From contig NZ_QAOH01000006.1 of assembly GCF_003050785.1 (NCBI RefSeq), positions 62,001 through 126,000 of the forward strand: 64,000 nucleotides of DNA. The letters are read 5' to 3'. Below the pieces are notes generated by a model. That model was not told the origin of the DNA and ran no database searches. It saw nothing but the letters and a program-made list of their open reading frames with translations. The translations under genes were made by a program, and so were the position numbers. This stretch comes from Celeribacter persicus. GTDB lineage: Bacteria; Pseudomonadota; Alphaproteobacteria; Rhodobacterales; Rhodobacteraceae. Positions 5,935 to 41,392 of the stretch are shown in pieces; positions within the stretch are counted from its first letter, which is position 1, and each line of letters opens with the position of its first letter.

Positions 5935-7287
5935 ATGGCAACAGCCCTCATTCTTTTGGCCGCCGGACAGGGAACACGGATGAATTCCGACCTGCCCAAG
6001 GTGCTGCACCCGATCGGCAACGCCCCCATGTTTGCCCATGCGCTGGCCTCCGGCACCGCTTTGGACCCGGAGCGCACGGTTCTGGTCGTCGGTCATGGCG
6101 GCGATCTGGTCGCGACAGAGGCCGCGAAGATCGACGAGGAGATCGTGATCGCCCGTCAGGAAGAACAACTCGGCACGGCGCACGCGGTTTTGCAGGCGAA
6201 AGAGGCGCTGTCGGGGTTCGAAGGCGACGCCATCGTGCTCTATGGCGACACGCCCTTCATTTCCGAGGACACGATCCTGCGCATGGCCGAGGCGCGCAAA
6301 TCGGCCGATGTGGTCGTTCTGGGCTTCGAGGCCGCCGATCCGGCACGTTACGGACGTCTGGTGATGGAGGGTGACAGGCTCACCCGCATCGTCGAATACA
6401 AGGACGCGACAGAGGCCCAGCGCGCAATCACCTTCTGCAATTCCGGTCTGGTCGCCGCCGATGCGAACGTGCTGTTTGAGCTTCTCGAACAGGTCGGGAA
6501 TGACAATGCCGCCGGGGAATATTATCTACCGGACATCGTTGAAATCGCATGGAAAGCCGGACGCACCGCGACCGCCGTTGCCTGTGACGAATCCGAGACG
6601 CTGGGCGTCAACACCCGCGCCGAGCTTGCCCGCGCCGAAGCGATTTTCCAGGCCGCCAAACGTGCGGAAGCGTTGGAGAACGGCGTGACCCTCATGGCGC
6701 CCGAAACCGTGTTCTTCTCGCTCGACACCTATATCGGGCGCGATACGGTGGTGGAGCCGAACGTGATCTTCGGCCCCGGCGTCACCGTGGAATCCGGTAC
6801 ACGTCTGCGGGCGTTCAGCCATTTCGAGGGCTGTCATGTGTCGATGGGATCGACCGTCGGCCCCTTCGCCCGTCTGCGCCCCGGCGCAGAACTGTCGAAC
6901 AACGCGCACATCGGCAATTTCGTCGAGGTGAAAAATGCCCTGATCGGCGAGGGCGCCAAAGTGAACCATCTCACCTATATCGGCGATGCGGAGATCGGCG
7001 ACGGCACCAACGTGGGCGCGGGCACGATCACCTGCAACTACGACGGCGTGTTCAAACATCGCACCGTCGTGGGACGCAATGCCTTCATCGGCTCGAACAC
7101 CATGCTGGTCGCGCCGGTGACCGTGGGGGATGAGGCGATGACCGCGAGCGGTTCCGTCATCACCACGAACGTCGAGCCGGGCGCTCTCGCGATCGGACGC
7201 GCGAAGCAGGTGAACAAACCGATGCTCGCCGTACGAATGTTCGCAAAGTTAAAGTCTCTCAAAGATAGAAAGCAAAAAGGTCAGTAA
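5935..7287 (+). CDS. glmU: Bifunctional GlmU: glucosamine-1-phosphate N-acetyltransferase / UDP-GlcNAc pyrophosphorylase
   Basis: GlmU carries out the last two steps to UDP-N-acetylglucosamine. The N-terminal uridyltransferase domain opens with LAAGQGTRMNSDLPKVLHPIG. The C-terminal half shows left-handed beta-helix hexapeptide repeats (IGEGAKVNHLTYIGDAEIGDG and following) and the acetyltransferase block GTITCNYDG, then FIGSNTMLVAPV. Length is 450 residues, normal for the family. The ATG at 5935 is chosen because homology starts there; the in-frame upstream extension is not family-like. It is followed one base later by glmS, so the pair forms an operon for cell-envelope precursor synthesis. 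Confidence 0.97.
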   Translation: MATALILLAAGQGTRMNSDLPKVLHPIGNAPMFAHALASGTALDPERTVLVVGHGGDLVATEAAKIDEEIVIARQEEQLGTAHAVLQAKEALSGFEGDAIVLYGDTPFISEDTILRMAEARKSADVVVLGFEAADPARYGRLVMEGDRLTRIVEYKDATEAQRAITFCNSGLVAADANVLFELLEQVGNDNAAGEYYLPDIVEIAWKAGRTATAVACDESETLGVNTRAELARAEAIFQAAKRAEALENGVTLMAPETVFFSLDTYIGRDTVVEPNVIFGPGVTVESGTRLRAFSHFEGCHVSMGSTVGPFARLRPGAELSNNAHIGNFVEVKNALIGEGAKVNHLTYIGDAEIGDGTNVGAGTITCNYDGVFKHRTVVGRNAFIGSNTMLVAPVTVGDEAMTASGSVITTNVEPGALAIGRAKQVNKPMLAVRMFAKLKSLKDRKQKGQ

Positions 7288-37493: not shown

Positions 37494-38621
37494 ATGAGCG
37501 AAACAACCCTCTATGTTTACGAGGTCAGTGCGATCTCCGTAACCACGACAAACGGTGTAGCCGTCCCCAGTGTTCTTGAAAAAGCCCTGTGGGGCGATGC
37601 ATTCAGTTGGGAAAAGCCGAACGATCTCGTTCTGACATTGCCGGAAACGACAACTGCAATCGTTTACAATGACGCCGATGGCTTGTTACAGGACGACCCG
37701 TATTCCGGCAGCTCCGTCACGGACCAGACCCTGCTTGAAGAAACGACACTGAACGGCACGACATATTCGCCGAGCGAGGGGACTGTGAGATGGGGCTACC
37801 CATCCCCTGTTACGGTTGAAAGCGAATACAGCGTGGAACTGCTCGGGTCAGACGGCGAAACATATACGCTGGTCGGCATTTCGATCACGACCGGTTACAA
37901 TACCGAAATCGTCGGCGTTGCATTCGACGGGGCCCAACCGCCAGCCGGGGTTACGCTGACATATGTGCAGGGCAATTCCACCTATCAGTCTACGGGCCCC
38001 AACCTTGACCCCACCCCGACCGTTCCCTGTTTTGCCGCCGGAACGAAGATAGAAACCCCCAATGGTGAGGTTCCGATCCAATATCTGAAAGTTGGCGATC
38101 TTGTCTCCACACTGGATCACGGTCCCCGTCCCATTTTATGGATCGGGCATAGTACCGTAGACGGTCGCAGCAAACTCGCCCCCATTCAGATCGAGGCAGA
38201 AGCCCTCGGAAACCGTAACGCTCTGAAAGTCTCGCCAAATCACCGCTTCCTCCTGCATGGCGCTGATATCGAGCTTTTGTTTGGCGAAGAGAGTGTGTTC
38301 GCTCCGGCGAAAGCGCTGGTAAATGACATATCCATCCGCCGCAGCCCCTGTCATCGCGTCACATATTTCCACATCCTGCTCAGCGGGCATGAAATCATTT
38401 TCTCCGAAGGCATCGCGACGGAAAGCCTTTTTACGGGTCCAATGGCCATGAGCGCACTCGACGACGCTGCACGGAATGAACTCTATGAGATTTTTGGCGA
38501 CGCGTTACCCGATGCAGCGACCTTGAGCCGCCCGGAAATCACGGTTTCCGAAGCGACCGCGCTCAAGCTTGCCCCGAGCCCGGCTTCACGGCACCAAATT
38601 TATTTCACGGGTCGAATCTAA
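37494..38621 (+). CDS. Hint-domain containing protein
   Basis: The 375-residue protein has a beta-rich, Thr/Ser-rich N-terminal region of no recognised family (about 1-175). A C-terminal Hint module follows, starting at C179 in CFAAGTKIETPNGEVPIQYLKVGDLV, with LDHGPRPILWIGH, KVSPNHRFLLHG and SGHEIIFSEGIATESLF. This is the Hint_2 type frequent in Rhodobacteraceae, related to intein and hedgehog self-processing modules, but no C-extein follows. Base composition is visibly lower in GC than its neighbours and AT-rich gaps flank it, suggesting horizontal acquisition. No signal peptide is seen. Function unknown. Confidence 0.85.
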   Translation: MSETTLYVYEVSAISVTTTNGVAVPSVLEKALWGDAFSWEKPNDLVLTLPETTTAIVYNDADGLLQDDPYSGSSVTDQTLLEETTLNGTTYSPSEGTVRWGYPSPVTVESEYSVELLGSDGETYTLVGISITTGYNTEIVGVAFDGAQPPAGVTLTYVQGNSTYQSTGPNLDPTPTVPCFAAGTKIETPNGEVPIQYLKVGDLVSTLDHGPRPILWIGHSTVDGRSKLAPIQIEAEALGNRNALKVSPNHRFLLHGADIELLFGEESVFAPAKALVNDISIRRSPCHRVTYFHILLSGHEIIFSEGIATESLFTGPMAMSALDDAARNELYEIFGDALPDAATLSRPEITVSEATALKLAPSPASRHQIYFTGRI

Positions 38622-39870: not shown

Positions 39871-40458
39871 ATGCCGAAATTTACCCCACAAACCGTCCGC
39901 ACCGACAGCGGTCACTCCGCCGCCTGCGGTCCCTATGAGGCCCTGCTGTTCAGCGACAGCGGAGAGTTGACGCAATTCGGTGCCTTTCTCGAAATTCTGC
40001 CACCGGGCTCCGCCTCCGCACTCAAACACTGGCATGAAGGAGAGGACGAGATGGTCTATATGATCGCGGGCGAGGTCATCGTCACGGAGGGAGATGAAAC
40101 CTATCCGCTCAGCGCGGGAGAAGCCGCAACCTTCAAGGCTGGCGTGGCCCGTGGTCATTGTCTGCGTAATAACGGTCCCGATGAAGCCCGTTATCTAAAG
40201 CCTTTCGCAATAAACTTGAGATACGAGTTGATTGCGAAAGGCCCGCCACATCAAAACGTTACGCCACGTTTCCCGAAAATCTGTGATTCAGGTCTTTCGC
40301 GAAACGCTTTGGTGATCGGCACGCGTTCTGCGGGAGATACAGTCACCTATCCCGATCACGACCGCATCCTGAGATTCACCCGCAGCGGCGCCAATATCAC
40401 GACCCGCACACACACTACCACAAATGGCATCCCCTCCGGCTCTCCCTATGAAGACTGA
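39871..40458 (+). CDS. Cupin domain protein carrying a 38-residue in-frame insertion
   Basis: The cupin core shows GGEL-like turns with HWHEGEDEMVYMIAGEVIV (motif 1, metal-binding histidines and glutamate) and a second motif ending GVARGHCLRNNG. Related cupins then have RYL followed directly by V-x-GTR and a YPD.D motif. Here RYL (to 40196) is separated from VIGTRSAGDTVTYPDHDRIL (from 40312) by exactly 114 bp encoding 38 unrelated residues. The frame stays open, giving 195 instead of about 157 residues. Whether the protein still folds is unknown. ATG 39871 is preceded by AGAGG. Confidence 0.88.
   Translation: MPKFTPQTVRTDSGHSAACGPYEALLFSDSGELTQFGAFLEILPPGSASALKHWHEGEDEMVYMIAGEVIVTEGDETYPLSAGEAATFKAGVARGHCLRNNGPDEARYLKPFAINLRYELIAKGPPHQNVTPRFPKICDSGLSRNALVIGTRSAGDTVTYPDHDRILRFTRSGANITTRTHTTTNGIPSGSPYED
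40197..40310. mobile_element. 114-bp palindromic element inserted in frame in the cupin gene
   Basis: The segment interrupting the cupin gene is bounded by 12-bp terminal inverted repeats, AAAGCCTTTCGC at the left and GCGAAACGCTTT at the right (11 of 12 match). It contains two more strong hairpins. One is GCCTTTCGCAAT / ATTGCGAAAGGC (40200-40242, perfect 12-bp stem). The other is CGTTTCCCGAAA / TTTCGCGAAACG (40267-40306, 11 of 12). It has no coding capacity of its own except the host frame and is 38 codons long without stop. Removing it restores an uninterrupted cupin motif. No target duplication is evident. It resembles a MITE or a protein-inserted palindromic element. Confidence 0.8.
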
Positions 40459-41392
40459 CATCTCCCCGCTTCCCAATATCACCCCCGCCTCCTGGATCAT
40501 GGTCGGCATCCTCGGCTTTGTCTGGGGCTCCACCTTTATGGTGATCGAGATTGCCCTCACCGGCATCTCGCCCTTCTGGCTCGCCACCTTCCGGCTAACC
40601 ATCGCGGCGCTTGTCATGGCCGCCTTCTGGGGCGTAGACGGGTTCAGAATGGGCACAGAGCCGGACAACAAACCGCATCCCATGGCGCTGATCTGGGCCG
40701 GGGCGATTTCCTCCGGCGTACCGTTCCTATTCCTGAACTGGGGCCAGCAATACGTGACCTCCGGTTTCGCCGGGACCTCCATGGCCGCCGTGCCTCTGGT
40801 CGTGTTGCCAATGGCGCATTTCATGGTGGCAGGTGAGCGTTTGACAATCCGCTCCGTCATCGGTGTGGCACTTGGTTTTCTGGGCGTTTTCCTTCTGGTC
40901 GGGCAGGATGCACTCCATAGTTCAGGCGCGGATCTCGAATTCTGGGGGCGGATGGCCTGCCTCACCGTCGCGTTTTGCTACGCGCTCAATTCGATCACCA
41001 TCCGCCGCCTGCCACCCATCAACCCGACCGCGCTCACCACGATCATGATGGCCAGCGGGGCGCTGATCACCCTGCCCTTCTCCCTTGCCGCCGAAGGTCT
41101 CCCCGGGCTGCCGCCGCTCAAGGCCTTTGTCGCGCTGATCTTCCTCGGCGTCGTCTCCACTGCCGCGATGAATCAACTGCGCGTACTGGTGATCCGCTCC
41201 GCCGGACCGACCTTCATGACGCTGGTGAATTATCAGGTGCCGCTCTGGTCCGTGATTTTGGGCGCGTGGATACTCAGCGAGCCGCTGCCGCCCACACTGA
41301 TCCTTGCGCTGGCCTTGATTCTGGGCGGCGTGATGATTTCGCAATGGCCCTCCCTACGCCCCATTGTGCGTCGGATTTTCGCGCAGCTCTGA
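40448..41392 (+). CDS. EamA/DMT superfamily transporter
   Basis: The 314-residue protein has ten predicted helices arranged as two EamA repeats: WIMVGILGFVWGSTFMVIEIAL opens the first and GRMACLTVAFCYALNSITIRRLPP the second. LVNYQVPLWSVILGAWILSEPLPP lies near the end, typical for drug/metabolite exporters of amino acids or their analogues. The ATG at 40448 overlaps the cupin stop by 11 bp; another ATG at 40424 is possible. Co-transcription with the cupin gene is likely. Substrate is unknown. Confidence 0.92.
   Translation: MKTDISPLPNITPASWIMVGILGFVWGSTFMVIEIALTGISPFWLATFRLTIAALVMAAFWGVDGFRMGTEPDNKPHPMALIWAGAISSGVPFLFLNWGQQYVTSGFAGTSMAAVPLVVLPMAHFMVAGERLTIRSVIGVALGFLGVFLLVGQDALHSSGADLEFWGRMACLTVAFCYALNSITIRRLPPINPTALTTIMMASGALITLPFSLAAEGLPGLPPLKAFVALIFLGVVSTAAMNQLRVLVIRSAGPTFMTLVNYQVPLWSVILGAWILSEPLPPTLILALALILGGVMISQWPSLRPIVRRIFAQL

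Follow-up and report, generated by a model that had tools for sequence, protein, structure and literature searches.

A 114-bp palindromic element, probably one copy of a MITE-like family of Rhodobacteraceae, lies in frame in a cupin gene of Celeribacter persicus

Introduction

How does a conserved protein motif come to be split by 38 additional codons while its reading frame stays open? The question is raised by a cupin gene in a 64,000-bp stretch of the Celeribacter persicus genome (contig NZ_QAOH01000006.1, positions 62,001 to 126,000; hereafter the window, whose numbering is used throughout). A first-pass annotation of the sequence had proposed that 114 bp within this gene are a short non-autonomous element that a protein can tolerate, comparable in concept to Rickettsia palindromic elements. 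We followed up that proposal computationally, asking what the insert is, how it may have arrived and what it may do to the protein.

Results

The insert and its empty sites

The gene matches Pfam PF07883 over residues 40-109 (E 7e-17), and its nearest solved relative is 3i7d. The insert, AAAGCC...CGCTTT, splits the cupin motif RYL-VIGTR in frame, and the locus reads CCCGTTATCT, then the 114 bp, then GGTGATCGGCAC. The first-pass annotation had located it exactly, at 40197-40310: the frame is open throughout the 38 inserted codons, and excision gives CGT TAT CTG GTG ATC GGC. The leucine codon is split between CT and G, and leucine is read at both edges, as CTA on the left and TTG on the right. 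Model R1 matched the window at a single place at E up to 1, positions 40196-40311, with 98 bits. Features of the locus are collected in Table 1. Elsewhere in the window, a downstream EamA-like frame (40424-41392, named by eye) overlaps the cupin 3' end (40424-40458) if its first ATG is used, and the protein encoded at 37494-38621 contains what by eye is a Hint-like stretch (CFAAGTKIETPNG...).

Table 1. Features of the interrupted cupin gene, in window coordinates
Feature	Position	Strand	Remarks
Cupin gene (Cupin_2) with in-frame insert	39871..40458	+	195 residues, 38 of them added; open frame
CTA, left part of split leucine codon (target C T^G G)	40195..40197	+	CTG here in 4/5 orthologues, CTT in 1/5
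114-bp palindromic element (AAAG...CTTT), putatively mobile	40197..40310	+	Without counterpart in 19/19 homologues; dispersed genomic copies
Left terminal inverted repeat, AAAGCCTTTCGC	40197..40208	+	11/12 match to right end
Hairpin 1 (17-nt arms)	40200..40242	+	Stem kept across copies by compensating changes
Linker	40243..40266	+	Small third hairpin in many other copies, none in the cupin copy (folds)
Hairpin 3, inverted relative to hairpin 1	40267..40306	+	
GATTC (GANTC) in hairpin 3 loop	40285..40289	+	
Right terminal inverted repeat (GCGAAACGCTTT on +)	40299..40310	-	Ends conserved across the element family
TTG, right part of split leucine codon	40309..40311	+	

When cupin homologues were compared for an empty site, as the first-pass annotation had suggested, the insert was present in 0 of the 19 that could be aligned (5 orthologues and 14 more distant homologues). 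An uninterrupted RYLVIGTR is conserved in all five orthologues, four from the genus (G003, G012, G019, G018) and one from the family (G021). The empty site reads CGCTATCTGGTGATCGG in four of these and CGCTACCTTGTCATCGG in the fifth. A second empty counterpart was found for a transposase gene of the two-contig genome G006, which the element interrupts out of frame and which is called an IS3 family transposase in related plasmid records. There the filled site reads CACCACA-TA[...]TA-GTCC; the empty site is CACCACGTAGTCC in two Sulfitobacter plasmids and CACCACATACTCG in one Leisingera plasmid. Given its absence from all 19 cupin homologues, and both close and diverged copies elsewhere in the genome, the presence of the insert is more than chance.

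These observations bear on the reading that takes the 38 residues for an ancient domain of the protein, kept by selection, instead of a mobile insert. An open frame in an intact cupin gene would agree with that. However, the residues occur in none of the 19 homologues, the structure predicted for them has a pLDDT of about 25-45, and the same DNA is dispersed, mostly outside genes, which contradicts this reading already; we consider it hardly credible. The first-pass annotation had named as evidence against a mobile element the same 38 residues in distant orthologues together with a lack of other genomic copies. We found the reverse on both counts: the homologues do not have the residues, and the genome has many other copies.

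Ends and hairpins of the cupin copy

The 12-bp terminal inverted repeats described earlier are present with 11 of 12 positions matching. So are two internal hairpins, but the 12-bp arms ascribed to both apply to hairpin 3 only (40267-40278 and 40295-40306, 92% complementary); the arms of hairpin 1 are 17 nt long (40200-40216 and 40226-40242, 94% complementary). The loop region of hairpin 1 is TTGAGATA in the cupin copy, and most other copies have CTGANNCA there. RNA spanning 40190-40317 was predicted to fold at -47 kcal/mol; 200 shuffled sequences gave -25.8 (SD 3.3; z -6.4), none of them as low, in agreement with the strong RNA structure that had been expected of the insert.

A dispersed family in Rhodobacteraceae

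Searching the 114-bp segment against its own genome and other Rhodobacteraceae, another check suggested, revealed a dispersed family with copies in relatives. A DNA search of the C. persicus genome gave 17 rows, two of which are the window copy on its two strands. A covariance model built from 16 copies gave 77 rows at E <= 0.001, which reduce to 42 distinct places because many palindromes match on both strands. These are 41 full-length copies and one truncated copy (L060), a lower bound since 150 of 986 candidates were scored. The end motif by itself occurred 50 times in this genome, against 2 occurrences of the reversed control.

Matches were found in 14 of 20 Celeribacter genomes at E <= 1e-4 and in 17 of 295 Rhodobacteraceae genomes (17 of 294 genera, own included) at E <= 1e-5, the family search scoring 12 candidates per genome under strict filters. 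Of the genus genomes, two have loci with 100% identity to Celeribacter sp. HF31 (two of 3115 bp) and C. naphthalenivorans (2353 bp), in line with the genus name. Under the same limits, C. persicus alone matched in a class sample of 289 genomes (0 of the other 288). The end motif appeared in 106 of 385 class genomes, never more than five times outside C. persicus and in numbers similar to the control. A pattern scan of named genomes yielded 59 stretches, mainly from Roseovarius, and others from Celeribacter, Loktanella, Brevirhabdus and MAGs of unclassified Rhodobacteraceae or Alphaproteobacteria; one record, likewise a MAG, is labelled Verrucomicrobia.

In G006, where 40 of the 57 candidates were scored, a single subfamily had 40 near-full-length copies, and 14 of these were identical over 115 bp. 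Five of these 14 lie inside copies of one IS3-like IS, one of the five sharing one flank only, and nine lie elsewhere, so part of the multiplication in G006 is due to the IS. In all, the element was seen inside an IS3-like transposase gene of this genome at five places, out of frame (L201, at G006:C1:1194803-1194917; L192, L194, L195 and L204), apparently as a passenger of the IS.

Other collections were also searched. No Rfam match touched the element at eight loci; six matches at E up to 1 all lay outside it and below gathering scores. Plasmids gave no match for the G006 subfamily, and partial matches for the cupin copy in six records (Aliiroseovarius 4, Roseovarius 2), with no listed gene beneath them in gene tables that are incomplete. 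The L038 copy had no match among phages, and viral contigs had no exact match to the right-end pattern. A protein consensus of the element's open frame matched in 4 of the 295 family genomes, own included. Apart from the cupin, the own-genome matches with long open frames were rejected as coding cases, since by eye they appear to lie opposite genes of the other strand or in intergenic DNA.

Family anatomy and stem covariation

Across copies the ends are TAAAG...CTTTA and the length is about 115 bp (115 or 116 bp in 48 of 58 copies). The plan runs TAAAGCG, a stem, a loop region mostly starting with CTGANNCA, the returning stem and a linker, often folded as a small hairpin, and then the same plan inverted. 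In lowest-energy folds of the 41 own-genome copies, 33 form a separate first hairpin and eight a single end-to-end stem; RNAalifold, run on the 16 copies of alignment A1, chose the end-to-end stem over two hairpins. The inverted-repeat ends allow either fold.

Stem pairing was measured in 58 copies, 41 own and 17 from other genomes. We counted pairs by script, since alignment A2 sets some stem arms out of register. Each 5' arm was paired with its own partner, with the partner taken from copies differing in the 5' arm at four or more places, or with a shuffled partner, the register being optimised alike in all three. Out of 12 pairs, the first stem formed 10.6 with its own partner, 6.8 with that of a differing copy and 6.4 with a shuffled one; the other stem formed 9.9, 6.8 and 6.0, respectively. 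Stem sequences differ among subfamilies and pairing is kept. Two causes would account for this covariation: the hairpin is under selection, or one arm has repeatedly been converted by the other.

GANTC was present in 22 of the 41 own copies, mostly near the position of the hairpin 3 loop, but the total of 24 sites lies within the range of shuffled copies (mean 17.3, maximum 30). Smaller and differently built relatives also came to light. Single hairpins of 49-50 bp with TA(A/G)AGCG...CGCTTTA ends occur in other genomes (L146:4654-4702 and 6656-6705, L136, L163), and one of them provides the stop codon for a gene that by eye resembles nicotinate phosphoribosyltransferase. L259, L263-L266 and L273-L275 are relatives of 95-106 bp with similar ends and another plan, in which one long stem runs from end to end and encloses an inner hairpin; GAAATC...GATTTC occurs in some of them.

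Anatomy of this kind brings to mind an element of the REP/REPIN type, with a Y1 (HUH) transposase mobilising it in the form of a single-stranded hairpin. The two inverted hairpins resemble a REP dimer, the single hairpins of L136, L146 and L163 share the ends of the full element, and pairing is conserved where sequence is not. Against this, no GTAG-type tag was seen in the copies and Y1_Tnp was not found in 17 of the 20 genus genomes. Three matched, C. persicus itself only partially, and there was none in the copy-rich G006, G019, G012 and G001. We regard a REP-type origin as quite unlikely.

Target site

TA stands at both ends in 122 of the 146 copies that are distinct by their flanks. The same single insertion was seen in two species at L077/L087 and, by eye, at L051/L068 and L062/L083. 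Of the other 24 rows, five were left out (L087, and L060, L118, L139 and L204 for truncated or misplaced ends), and L216 was read again. Among the 19 usable copies without TA at both ends, the outer base alone had changed in 16, the inner base alone in one and both in two; the excess of outer over inner changes (16 versus 1) gave p 0.0003. A pyrimidine (C or T) precedes the outer T at 268 of 292 ends, the few misplaced ends included.

At TA targets, schemes with and without TA duplication give identical sequence. The clearest case for the scheme without duplication is the cupin: its site is CT^GG in four orthologues, consistent with the element having gone in between T and G and no target base having been duplicated. 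Judged from the flanks, an element AAAG...CTTT likely joins to T on one side and to A, or at times G or C, on the other, without repeating any base of the target.

An alternative is a classical MITE of the IS630/Tc1-mariner kind, in which a DDE enzyme cuts and duplicates TA and the TG at the cupin arose by a later synonymous change, TTA to TTG. The prevalence of TA at both ends and of a pyrimidine before the T would suit it. The four genus orthologues have CTG at this codon, however, and not CTA, and the 16-to-1 bias towards outer changes also speaks against it.

Search for the mobilising enzyme

The element is short, encodes no transposase and bears terminal inverted repeats, as MITEs do. In five of six genomes searched, all five bearing copies (G006, G019, G012, G001, G011), there was no match to DDE_3, the IS630-type transposase domain. 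The C. persicus genome had three, two of which are transposase pieces at G000:C1:408236-408581 that end 20 bp from element copy L052, either by chance or as an old partner.

No long element with the ends of the main subfamily was found in G006. Its end motif gave 76 hits, of which two fell outside the listed copies, one a chance match and the other a truncated copy, and by eye no pair of end motifs framed a longer element with a transposase. Two G006 copies 1.1 kb apart flank an apparent host membrane-protein gene. In 1.1 Mb of locus DNA, six end pairs were spaced wider than one copy; four are neighbouring copies and two, by eye, surround ordinary genes.

The DDE_3 pieces beside one own-genome copy thus count in favour of an IS630-type MITE, while the five copy-bearing genomes with no DDE_3 and the lack of a long G006 element count against it. 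We think it a serious candidate that is nonetheless somewhat improbable. Neither DDE_3 nor Y1 was matched in the copy-rich G006; the mobilising enzyme would have been lost or be of another class.

Coding insertions and effect on the protein

Copies lie mostly outside genes. A crude hexamer score applied to the joined flanks of 142 copies was above zero on both sides for two IS copies, L073, L047, L106, the cupin copy, L070 and L203. L073 was rejected as a coding insertion because it lies between gapA-like and ArsR-like genes (by eye) with no Pfam match, and L047 because it is intergenic by eye. The cupin score is weak on the right side (0.10), and its in-frame status rests on the orthologues; by this crude test it appears to be the sole convincing in-frame coding insertion among the 142.

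The cupin gene stayed open because the net insert is 114 bp and the phase nTA AAG ... GCT TTn contains no stop codon in the cupin copy. That phase favours read-through, being open in 30 of 82 copy-orientations, compared with 12% of shuffles, although the copies are related and so not independent; the phase starting TAA is closed in 82 of 82. Net length is divisible by three in 18 of the 41 own copies.

The insert might instead have inactivated the cupin, leaving a fresh pseudogene. It does split a motif, RYLVIGTR, conserved in five of five orthologues. But the gene has no stop or frameshift, and its dN to each of the four genus orthologues is 0.20-0.23, not raised over the 0.21-0.25 among the orthologues themselves (one close pair, 0.06). 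By these measures the gene is without apparent decay or excess amino-acid change, and an intact frame may only reflect a young insert. The predicted fold also appears intact. From 6 sequences AlphaFold gave a poor model (pLDDT 54.6). With 20 sequences the mean pLDDT was 76, residues 115-147 being the sole stretch below 50, and the best match was 3i7d (TM 0.86 by target length). The insert is predicted to be a disordered loop that leaves strand 106-113 with the cupin fold undisturbed. Inactivation seems unlikely to us, and the protein probably carries the 38 extra residues.

Discussion

We conclude, with a probability of about 0.87 for the explanation as a whole, mechanism included, that the 114 bp represent a copy of a mobile element of Rhodobacteraceae that is MITE-like and non-autonomous. 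We take as established its dispersed copies, the empty orthologous sites, the precise ends, the open frame, the stem covariation and the identical copies in a relative. The first of these, with the empty sites and the open frame, uphold the original suggestion of a short non-autonomous element tolerated in a protein gene.

In the mechanism we propose, an element of about 115 bp with AAAG...CTTT ends and two inverted hairpins around a linker would enter YT^AR sites precisely, and occasionally YT^G or YT^C. A trans-acting enzyme would recognise its ends, by the terminal AAAGCG together with the CTGANNCA motif lying about 20 nt inside, and probably also the hairpin. In the cupin gene, the target would have been C T^G G within a leucine codon. 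The cupin would be translated and still fold, its 38 extra residues most likely a floppy loop, and the insertion would be nearly neutral.

A broader idea, which we offer tentatively and think more probably wrong than right, is that such hairpin elements are recognised by shape and short end motifs, are moved by neither DDE_3 nor Y1 enzymes, and join at T^R with no duplication while their stems drift with pairing kept. If this were true, stem drift would create new subfamilies with mobility intact, and a protein would occasionally gain a loop of 38 residues. The strengths of the case are that the empty sites are clear, that a relative has identical copies and that the stems covary strongly. They open two questions to testing: which agent mobilises palindromic elements lacking a known transposase, and whether a folded protein tolerates a loop of this kind.

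We did not find this element family described in the open-licence literature; RIME1 of Rhizobium was considered through the literature alone. Several known systems are similar, the closest being Rickettsia palindromic elements and Caulobacter CIR repeats. ERIC/RU-1, RUP and Correia are described as TA-flanked bacterial MITEs that are short with inverted repeats (PMC2229807), and the account available for RU repeats includes in-frame fusion with reading frames, a precedent for the cupin case (PMC2759123). The Rhodobacteraceae element shares their short length, inverted repeats and TA termini; unlike them, it has a two-hairpin plan, and five of six genomes had no IS630-type transposase. CGTC REPs are reported in the cited account to be common in Alphaproteobacteria, to be without an associated transposase and to occur within genes at times (PMC3733652). 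They and the REP/REPINs with RAYT form inverted hairpin dimers and single units, as our element does, but its units are 45-50 bp rather than 20-40, no GTAG tag was seen, and four genomes rich in copies had no Y1 transposase.

The CIR repeats of Caulobacter were reportedly described by Chen and Shapiro in 2003. As summarised in one later source, CIR repeats of Caulobacter and Brucella are about 110 bp, with two arms, a linker and TA termini; some copies have GANTC in the terminal loop, and they are described there as not found within genes and as having stops in all six frames (PMC2229807). Likened by description, this is the closest body plan to that of our element, and both occur in Alphaproteobacteria. 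The two arms, linker and TA termini are seen here as well, a separate first hairpin forming in 33 of 41 own copies. Conservation of GANTC is not seen, with 22 of 41 copies and a site count within the shuffle range. Our element also differs in its open frames and one coding insertion. Our class sample gave no R1 match or end-motif excess outside Rhodobacteraceae.

Work on Rickettsia palindromic elements (RPEs) is reportedly due to Ogata, Claverie and co-workers. The cited descriptions give RPEs as palindromic, about 105-150 bp long and located in protein genes with an open frame (PMC10969869, PMC2229807), in-frame insertion being frequent (PMC10969869). The likeness proposed at the outset holds, compared by description alone, for size, palindromes, open frame, in-frame insertion and the lack of a known mobiliser. 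It fails for frequency: coding insertions are frequent in RPEs, and here a single convincing in-frame case stands out among 142 copies by a crude test. The host group differs too, and our element has two inverted hairpins and conserved AAAGCG ends. The cupin gene of C. persicus would represent a further alphaproteobacterial setting, outside intracellular Rickettsia, in which palindromic elements enter protein genes in frame.
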